A stretch of DNA of 64,000 bases from Spirosoma aureum (GTDB lineage: Bacteria > Bacteroidota > Bacteroidia > Cytophagales > Spirosomataceae): assembly GCF_011604685.1 (NCBI RefSeq), contig NZ_CP050063.1:248001-312000 (forward strand), read 5' to 3'. The position numbers and the translations under genes were made by a program. The notes under the pieces were generated by a model that saw nothing but the letters and a program-made list of their open reading frames with translations, was not told the DNA's origin and did not search any database. This document shows, piece by piece, positions 1,074-63,108 of the stretch (the first letter of the stretch is position 1; each line of letters opens with the position of its first letter).

Positions 1074-1228
1074 AATCAGCAAGGATGAATGAGTTTGTGC
1101 TATAAACTACAAAGCAGGACAGATTGATTGCTGACACTGGGCCAATTTACAAATCAAGCTGTCGGTTAAGTCGTAAAAAGCGTTTAAGCTCGCCCCTTGG
1201 TAGAGAAACTTCCGGCGTTAAGGAATTA

Positions 1229-1298
1229 GGCCTTTGTCTTCGATCCATGCCACGGTTACTGATCCTGTTAACCGTGGCATGGATCGAAGACAAAGGCC
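1229..1298. repeat. Long perfect hairpin, divergent member of the CCRTGCCACGGTT hairpin family
   Basis: Arms 1229-1258 and 1269-1298 are exact reverse complements over 30 bp, with a 10-base loop. The inner part of the stem (CCATGCCACGGTTA) matches the cores of the hairpins at 34908-34986 and 59117-59184, while the outer 18 bp are unrelated to them. No T-run follows on either strand. It lies in the 313-bp spacer between the Rieske oxidoreductase and exbD, apart from the terminator at 1321-1357. Confidence 0.85.
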
Positions 1299-1320
1299 AA
1301 GAATTCGCCTTGACAATCAA

Positions 1321-16291: not shown

Positions 16292-16347
16292 TAGTTATAA
16301 TGCAGAAAGGCCATCCTCAACAGGATGGCCTTTCTGCATTATAACTA
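16292..16347. terminator. Bidirectional terminator between degQ-like gene and gmd
   Basis: A perfect 26-bp stem (16292-16317 with 16322-16347) and a four-base loop fill the gap between two convergent genes. A/T-rich ends on both sides fit use in both directions. Confidence 0.85.
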
Positions 16348-34901: not shown

Positions 34902-34907
34902 TATAAA

Positions 34908-34986
34908 CAGGGATTTTGCGAAAGCCGTGCCACGGTTTGCTTTCACTTCATTAGTAACCGTGGCACGGGCTTTCGCAAAATCCCTG
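34908..34986. repeat. Hairpin family member with 18-base conserved loop (reverse orientation)
   Basis: Arms 34908-34937 and 34956-34986 pair over 30 bp with one bulged base. The 18-base loop is, on the minus strand, ACTAATGAAGTGAAAGCA, two bases different from the loop at 59142-59159. The inner stem AGCCGTGCCACGGTT is shared with that copy; the outer arms are not. It lies between two convergent genes and could also act as a terminator. Confidence 0.88.
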
Positions 34987-35060
34987 ATAAAGACACAATT
35001 CATCGTGGCCTTCTTTTCTGAAGCCGTGTCAATATTGGGCACGGCTTTAGGCACAAGAAA

Positions 35061-53073: not shown

Positions 53074-53375
53074 TAGTACAAAGTTCAATTTTGAATCAAC
53101 ATTCACGCTACAGAGCCCACACCTAAATTCAGCAGAAATCTCCGGGAAATTTAAGCCGTTTTTTACACATATCAGGTTCAAACGGCTTAATAGACCGAAT
53201 TAACAGGATATTTCACTCTTGGTTGGCTTGATGCACTTATCAACCTCTCGAAAACGGTTCAGCTATTTTTCAGCGACTGCGCAGGAAAGTTTCCGATTTT
53301 ATCTGCTACATTCGTTTAGATTTATTCTAAATAAATACCATTTGGCATACCGTTCTCTTTAACATAACTTAGATC

Positions 53376-56993: not shown

Positions 56994-57255
56994 TTTATCT
57001 CTACGTTTGGTTAAAAAGCCCAATTGTACCCTTCTGTTACTGTAATCGGTCAGAGTGCCGCTAATTGGTCAACTGAAAAAACTGTATTGTGCTCTGTCGT
57101 GAACAGAATCATCTTACATTTCGACACGGTCAGATTTCAATAACGCCCTGAAAAATTTGTATATTAAAGGCTTCGGGCCGTGTTACGATTTGATTACGCA
57201 TATTAGTAACCGCAGCATGGCTCGAAGCGAAATCCCTAGATAGAAACAACAGATA

Positions 57256-58994: not shown

Positions 58995-59458
58995 ATCATT
59001 ACGCTATGCTTTTAAGTAGCCACAAAGCCCTGGTTATCATACCATATACCACATACATAGAGACATTTGGCAAGCCAGCCATTTTCGCACAAAAAACTGA
59101 TTTACAACAGTAGGGCATTCACGTCGAGCCGTGCCACGGTTACTAATGGAGAGAAAGCAAACCGTGGCACGGCTCGACGTGAATTTACAACACTTATGAT
59201 TCAACTCATTTGTCAATAATTCTTCGCGCTTCTTTTTATAGTAGTATGACAAATTACCTTTAACTAATAAACATGATACTCGGACTATGATAAAGAGTAT
59301 CTTCAATCTAAAGTTTGTACAACATACAGATTACCAGAGCATTTACAAATAAAACTCTTGCAGGTAGGCATGTAGAGGTTACCAATGGAATTTATCTTAA
59401 TCTGGTTCTTTGGGAATTCTATGAATTAATAGTAGTCATTTTCATTAATTCACCAGGT
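58995..59458. other. 464-bp spacer, A/T-rich, with the third conserved hairpin
   Basis: No convincing reading frame. The only structure is the hairpin at 59117-59184. A long frame before the MBL gene (from 59315) runs through without a good start and is not used. Confidence 0.6.
59117..59184. repeat. Hairpin family member with 18-base conserved loop (forward orientation)
   Basis: Arms 59117-59141 and 59160-59184 pair perfectly over 25 bp around the loop ACTAATGGAGAGAAAGCA. Inner stem and loop match the copy at 34908-34986 in reverse orientation with two loop differences; the outer 10 bp of each arm do not match. Confidence 0.9.
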
Positions 59459-60530: not shown

Positions 60531-60603
60531 TGGCAAAAATTGAACCGTGTTGCCTGACAGATTAACACAAAGCCTGCCAGGCAACACGGTTCAATTTTTG
60601 CCA
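60531..60603. terminator. Long perfect hairpin between convergent genes
   Basis: Arms 60531-60556 and 60578-60603 pair perfectly over 26 bp with a 21-base loop. It is placed between the MBL and PNPOx genes, both transcribed towards it. The outer ends are A- and T-rich. It lacks the conserved GTGCCACGGTT core. Confidence 0.75.
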
Positions 60604-62945: not shown

Positions 62946-63062
62946 GTGGTAAAAATCGGCCATTTTCAGAATGCATATTTGGTGTATGATGAGCAACTAA
63001 AACAGATTAAGCAAGAGCTGAAGCGGAATAAGTCGGCTAAAAAGATTGCAGATATGGAGTAG
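62946..63062 (+). CDS. Possible small charged peptide, 38 residues
   Basis: From GTG 62946 (TTG 62943 is also possible) the frame gives a Lys/Glu/Gln-rich helix-forming peptide (YDEQLKQIKQELKRNKSAKK) ending at TAG 63062. The stop lies inside the left arm of the hairpin at 63055-63108. It could be a real small protein, or the tail of a lost gene. Confidence 0.3.
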   Translation: MVKIGHFQNAYLVYDEQLKQIKQELKRNKSAKKIADME

Positions 63063-63108
63063 GATTAGCCATTGAGACAAGTATGTCTCAATGGCTAATC
63101 CTACTCCA
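63055..63108 (+). terminator. Perfect 25-bp hairpin with 4-base loop
   Basis: Arms 63055-63079 and 63084-63108 are exact reverse complements. No T-run follows directly. It begins at the stop of the small frame at 62946-63062. Confidence 0.75.

Follow-up and report, generated by a model that had tools for sequence, protein, structure and literature searches.

The hairpin at 59117-59184 of the DNA analysed here, a stretch of 64,000 nucleotides from Spirosoma aureum (the window), very probably belongs to a family of non-autonomous, MITE-like mobile palindromes, each about 80 bp long, whose arms would have been re-matched after insertion by template switching during replication. Typically, the element consists of two inverted arms of about 31 bp and an 18-nt loop, and it is flanked by a 5-bp target duplication. 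Family size, ends, target duplication, two empty sites and the matching of the arms within each copy, despite the divergence between orthologs, were observed directly. Below, G000 is the genome of S. aureum and G021 a sister genome. The features of the window are:

59111..59190, + strand: element copy behind the finding; it has TAGGGCATTCACG at its left end and is eroded on the right past CGTGAAT, so that the extent of 80 bp follows the usual length in the family
59117..59141, + strand: left arm of this copy, 25 bp, perfectly paired
59142..59159, + strand: its 18-nt loop, in the ACTAAT... orientation
59160..59184, + strand: its right arm
34908..34986, - strand: second copy, CAGGG...CCCTG, with the loop in opposite orientation and a 1-nt bulge in the stem
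34903..34907, no strand: left 5-bp target duplication ATAAA of the second copy, exact (entry 282914)
34987..34991, no strand: right 5-bp target duplication ATAAA of the second copy, exact
1227..1300 (approximate), + strand: third copy, with perfect 30-bp arms at 1229-1258 and 1269-1298
57166..57232, - strand: decayed copy, whose ortholog in G021 is likewise decayed
53335..53339, no strand: empty site ATACC; G021 has a copy of about 80 bp between ATGCC and ATACC

Re-reading of the sequence placed both hairpins of the first-pass annotation at 59117-59184 and 34908-34986. As claimed there, the inner stem AGCCGTGCCACGGTT is present in each, and the 18-base loops (ACTAATGGAGAGAAAGCA and ACTAATGAAGTGAAAGCA) agree in 16 of 18 positions after reverse-complementing one of them. 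The outer arms do pair at each locus, but they are not unrelated between copies, as had been thought: a family-wide arm consensus exists, and the arms of these two copies (the right arm at 34908 is CACGGGCTTTCG) look unrelated because both are diverged members of the family. Altogether, the window has 11 core-like matches against 1.47 expected. A 10-bp direct repeat (ATTTACAACA, at 59100-59109 and 59183-59192) lies on either side of the 59117 copy and is absent from the aligned ortholog in G021. The window also has two perfect hairpins outside the family, with arms of 26 bp (16292-16347) and 25 bp (63055-63108) and 4-nt loops.

The half-core AGCCGTGCCACGGTT has 69 exact matches on the 8.9-Mb contig of G000, and the reversed control has none. 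Thus, the core is not rare; neither of the outcomes that were to have undone the first-pass idea, a core occurring only three times and the ordinary decay of one terminator, was found. A covariance model built from 13 copies gave at least 150 matches in G000, both strands counted. Exact half-core matches and covariance matches were pooled into 106 distinct sites, leaving out five weak covariance-model sites and one exact half-core site (8250363), and the family has at least 106 sites. In its consensus, TAGGACTTTCGCTCAGAGCCGTGCCACGGTT and its reverse complement enclose an 18-nt loop, which is either ACTAATGATGCGCAAACA or of a second type. The whole is about 80 bp long and has the ends YAGGACTTTCG...CGAAAGTCCTR, from which 83 of the 104 copies that could be assessed show no more than four differences at each end. 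The copies are mostly intergenic (102 intergenic sites were classified). The core is nearly invariant in the 13 aligned copies, which were chosen by core. Around the arm consensus, mean pairwise identity is 52% over the outer 14 nt (74 arms), and some copies are perfect over at least 30 bp though arms vary widely between copies.

There are variants with a 3-nt loop, with a lengthened mid-arm, or with an additional mini-hairpin, some 16 nt long and next to the core (on both arms in L329). Mini-versions of 42-47 bp (L324, L330, L339) have the family ends and lack the core; from its flanks, compared by eye, the 42-bp one seems to be the same insertion in G000 and G021. One hairpin of G021 (L213:9873-9966) corresponds to two degraded half hairpins that lie 31 kb apart in G000 (C1:7583697, L246, and 7615025, L245), which is a rearrangement through the hairpin.

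Matches at E <= 1e-7 are present in 12 of 36 genomes of the genus, G000 included, and in none of the other 24. Long-armed hairpins with an identical core were also seen in S. arboris, S. endophyticum and S. fluviale, and two loci of S. arboris (L147, L154) align to loci of G000 at 77-81%. In named genomes, 49 stretches contain the exact core pair; we take their genera to be Bacteroidota, or they are MAGs so labelled. Outside Spirosoma, these are core-only palindromes with arms of 13-20 bp and unrelated flanks. The core-only palindromes L130-L178 (Niastella, Telluribacter, Persicitalea, Longitalea and others) mostly have a 3-nt loop, and no target duplication was seen by eye. Of 26 copies with a 3-nt loop that could be placed, two of them long-armed and from Spirosoma, 19 lie at most 34 bp from the 3' end of a called gene and 1 lies between divergent genes. 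The core may derive from a separate REP-like or 3'-end element.

Mobility is recorded in the flanks. In the 83 of 104 assessable copies with both ends recognisable, a 5-bp target duplication is exact in 24 (shuffled mean 0.44, maximum 3) and has at most one mismatch in 45 (shuffled mean 3.1, maximum 8), with an agreement per position of 53-63 of 83. Other duplication lengths at the same boundary are near chance. Such a 5-bp pattern is the expected footprint of DDE-type transposition. Two sites are occupied in G021 and empty in G000, where the whole unit of about 80 bp is missing, arms included: at window 53335-53339, G021 has the element between ATGCC and ATACC where G000 has ATACC, and at 7623401 of G000, G021 has it between two copies of TATAC where G000 has TGTAC. 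One target copy at the empty site and two at the occupied site indicate insertion. The junction of a third site occupied in G021 (L211 vs L018) is unclear and was left out of this count. Short, non-coding, with inverted ends, target duplication, many copies and empty sites, the element is a MITE-like mobile element. The earlier argument that the flanks of each hairpin match only themselves, rather than being a mobile element's own ends, fails here, since the outer arms are these ends and have a family consensus. Whether the palindrome grows outwards into the duplicated target was also considered, but pairing across the junction in 6 of 16 imperfect duplications (with identical middle) against 3 of 24 perfect ones is too weak a signal.

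The element would be moved in trans by a transposase that makes 5-bp duplications. RAYTs are Y1 transposases associated with REP elements, and a search for them had been proposed; it was run, and the Y1_Tnp profile (PF01797) has 0 matches in G000, with 5 of 14 controls matched. REP/BIME elements (PMC3733652) resemble the family as dispersed intergenic palindromes. A REP/RAYT identity was rejected: no Y1_Tnp was found in G000, the length is about 80 bp and not 20-40 bp as in REP palindromes, which are tagged GTAG or CGTC, and a target duplication is present. Apart from pairs of two hairpins, no inverted ends 0.8-5 kb apart, as expected of an autonomous partner, were seen by eye among the places listed in G000 and, in part, in G021. 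DDE_Tnp_1 has 13 matches in G000 and G021 together, of which one locus (L354, in G021) has element-like inverted ends, CAGGGCTTTC, and two (L344, L351) are partly masked. L354 (G021:C1:10251047) contains two insertion sequences, presumably ISAs1-like, with the ends CAGGGCTTTCTTATAAAA and about 10 nt in common with the ends of the element. The target duplication of ISAs1 is 8-10 bp, which would conflict with the 5 bp of the element; the flanks of L354 itself are masked.

The second part of the finding, the re-matching of the arms, is based on the comparison of orthologs. Within G000, 2660 of 2774 pairs (96%) are Watson-Crick in the 88 of 106 copies in which a hairpin with a loop of at most 30 nt was found; the mismatches are 45 AC, 40 GT and 29 others. 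Among the G021 loci compared, orthologs were found for 35 of the 106 elements, drawn from well-scoring copies, so that decayed copies are under-sampled; the matched flanks are about 89-95% identical (92.95% over a block of 33.8 kb). Arms were scored in 31 of the 35, the other four having no detectable hairpin in one species. Of the 974 pairs, 819 are the same, 64 have changed on both sides and are Watson-Crick, 3 have changed on both sides otherwise, 85 show a single-sided change, and 3 have a mismatch that is alike in both species; the 67 both-changed pairs compare with 12.3 expected if the arms were independent. In the outer arms (519 pairs beyond the core) 57 pairs are both-changed in register, 55 of them Watson-Crick, as opposed to 8-15 both-changed and 0-1 Watson-Crick after a shift of the register by 1-4. 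The test that had been asked for, whether arm differences are compensated on the other side, is thus answered in the affirmative. There are 50 single-sided changes in the outer arms, of which 38 are a mismatch in G000.

In total, 107 of 519 outer pairs (20.6%) have changed, compared with 16.5% computed from a flank divergence of 8.6% per site, a rough comparison because the flanks include coding sequence and their rate may be too low as a neutral rate. Since the outer arms change no slower than the flanks, it is apparently the match that is kept and not the sequence of the stem. Transversions outnumber transitions in the both-changed pairs (40 to 24), as opposed to 25 : 60 in the single changes and 294 : 451 in the flanks. 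Indels of 8, 5 and 5-6 bp (3214474, 3500990, 2253001) are found in both arms of one species and in neither arm of the other. At 1856686, an off-consensus segment of the left arm is common to both species and is on the right arm in G000 only; 3125600 is half-rewritten in the same way with the roles of the species swapped. Judged from the two genomes, these loci look like snapshots in which the newer sequence would be on both arms in one species and on one arm in the other. Hairpins outside the family have a weaker tendency, with 17 both-changed Watson-Crick pairs and 51 single changes in 24 rows, six hairpins being counted twice and one row (L018) being a decayed family member; counted once per hairpin, there are ten both-changed pairs in 5 of 18 hairpins. 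In an unrelated 30-bp hairpin of the window (60531-60603, GAACCGTGTTGCC...), the arm changes between G000 and G021 are largely compensated.

The loops have changed as well. They are comparable at 26 of the 35 orthologous loci (9 are not), with 14 direct, 8 inverted and 4 ambiguous. Hence, 8 of 22 callable loops are inverted between orthologs, from which a two-state formula gives an estimate of about 0.65 inversions per element over the divergence. At 6399906 the loops are identical in 18 of 18 positions, solely after inversion.

How could this come about? After insertion, a mutation in one arm would be either lost or copied to the other arm, by a conversion within the hairpin. For the copying, the DNA polymerase would change templates across the hairpin while replicating it, and with switch points in both arms the loop would come out inverted. 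Template switching was one of three options in the first-pass annotation; it is supported by the compensation of arm changes, by indels common to the two arms and by inverted loops at orthologous loci, but the stem is not lengthened at each place, as proposed: it is the element's own and is re-matched. We infer the process from its footprint, and RecA-dependent conversion from arm to arm would leave a similar one. Two observations are less comfortable: if point mutations were simply copied, this would not account for the excess of transversions in the both-changed pairs, and pairing is slightly lower between divergent than between tandem genes (94.2% vs 96.2%), which we count against template switching.

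Both arms would also change together if another member of the family overwrote the whole copy by ectopic gene conversion. Exchange does occur, as at 386823, 2844823, 5753551 and 6221638 the two orthologs have loops of different type, and the extra mini-hairpin differs between some orthologs too; we read the exchange of loop types as occasional recombination. In 29 of the 55 compensated outer pairs, one or both of the variant 11-mers recur in another copy, and for those 29 ectopic exchange is an alternative. However, neither variant of the remaining 26 is present in any other of the 106 copies and 96 further sampled copies, at 3500990, 6298302 and 6583424 the changed bases are still surrounded by outer sequence specific to the locus, and the half-rewritten copies at 1856686 and 3125600 match their own other arm. 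As a general explanation, ectopic conversion is therefore unlikely.

Somewhat less likely still is a function as RNA or DNA site, another of the first-pass options, in which pairing of the stem is under selection and compensatory mutations become fixed in succession. The high degree of Watson-Crick pairing and the near-invariant core (in copies picked by core) would fit, as would a modest closeness to gene 3' ends (median 40 bp, compared with 100 bp to 5' ends, by crude ORF calls). An RNA stem should tolerate G-U pairs, but GT and AC mismatches are about equally rare, also when 60 tandem sites are read on the transcribed strand (31 AC, 29 GT, 12 others), and most both-changed pairs are transversions, which cannot pass through G-U. 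A terminator is not expected between divergent genes, where 17 of 102 intergenic sites lie, and there the arms pair nearly as well (94.2%) as between tandem (96.2%) or convergent genes (96.5%). By eye, no run of more than three T follows the 59117 or the 34908 hairpin, as it would an intrinsic terminator, and a search of the window against Rfam at gathering thresholds gave no match. Change in the outer arms is no slower than in the flanks, and indels in both arms as well as loop inversions are left unexplained by selection. A host function is not needed to explain the element.

The third option, a small core element inserting into the apex of pre-existing hairpins, is very unlikely. It could draw on the core-only palindromes of Niastella, Telluribacter, Persicitalea and others, in which long arms are missing and the loop is mostly of 3 nt, and on the coreless 42-47 bp hairpins with family ends (L324, L330). 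Against it, the target duplication sits outside the outer arms, which are the element's own ends and have a family consensus, and a relative with the outer palindrome and no core, as had been suggested for a search, was not what the empty sites revealed: both resolved ones, of typical copies, lack arms and core together. That the arms were complementary only at birth, by fold-back copying during transposition, and have decayed since is the least credible explanation; it would account for copies that are perfect over at least 30 bp despite wide differences between copies, but not for insertions shared by G000 and G021, with conserved flanks, in which both arms have come to differ; only repeated replacement of elements at the identical base could save it.

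Returning to template switching after insertion, one may speculate that the rewriting of the arms is near a steady state and that this is self-correcting DNA, whose sequence drifts neutrally while its structure is inherited; in a bold version, the element depends on arm matching, and a lineage-specific repair background drives the rate. We regard this as a rather doubtful extension. In the outer stem there is about one both-arm change per single-arm change (55 to 50), together with the loop inversions of about 0.65 per element, at the flank divergence of 8.6%. If true, arm matching would keep a non-coding palindrome competent for transposition without selection on its sequence. Quasipalindrome template switching arises in replication, is independent of RecA and is suppressed by exonucleases. 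ExoI (PF08411) was found in none of the 36 genomes of the genus, the large subunit of ExoVII in 35 and SbcD (TIGR00619) in 30 (26 above the cut-off), with no match in G000 or G024. Loss of a hairpin nuclease was considered as the cause, but SbcD is found in G021, G020, G022 and G025, all carriers of the family; with carriers both with and without an SbcD match there is no simple link.

Correia/NEMIS, ERIC and RUP are examples of prokaryotic MITEs. Such elements (reviewed in PMC10969869) are likewise short and non-coding, with terminal inverted repeats, target duplication, many intergenic copies and presence or absence between relatives. Unlike them, our element is almost wholly one hairpin, its arms diverge between copies while being matched within a copy, and a partner transposase was not found. 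Template switching between arms is itself a known process; here it would act on a high-copy bacterial element. Quasipalindrome mutation in E. coli was attributed to it (PMC7202029). In yeast, it homogenises the arms of inverted repeats and inverts the spacer, in 39 protein-coding genes (PMC8604942); these are the same two footprints, but here in one dispersed bacterial family with many replicate hairpins at comparable loci. Template switching also creates and maintains RNA hairpins, with multi-base compensated changes of the stem from one copying event (PMC8794818), by which our multi-base changes can likewise be explained; the stems there are RNA genes, whereas here no RNA function is indicated and mismatches of the G-U type are not favoured. 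In mitochondrial genomes of nematomorphs, long inverted repeats stay perfect through substitutions that come in pairs, one in each arm, a concerted evolution of arms (PMC6649704), but these are coding sequences of an organelle and not a mobile element family. Neither a description of this hairpin family nor a high-copy bacterial mobile hairpin shaped this far by template switching, with dozens of replicate loci, was found in the open-licence literature.

When base changes in a stem are compensated, this is ordinarily taken to mark a functional RNA. The mobile hairpins described here are probably functionless, and still compensated changes are abundant in them, along with indels common to the two arms and flipped loops. 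As the compensated changes apparently arise at the DNA level, covariation alone could miscall such hairpins as RNA genes. The family offers dozens of replicate hairpins at comparable insertion sites, and the target duplications could serve as an internal clock of decay; together, these would make the rate of arm-to-arm copying in bacteria directly measurable.
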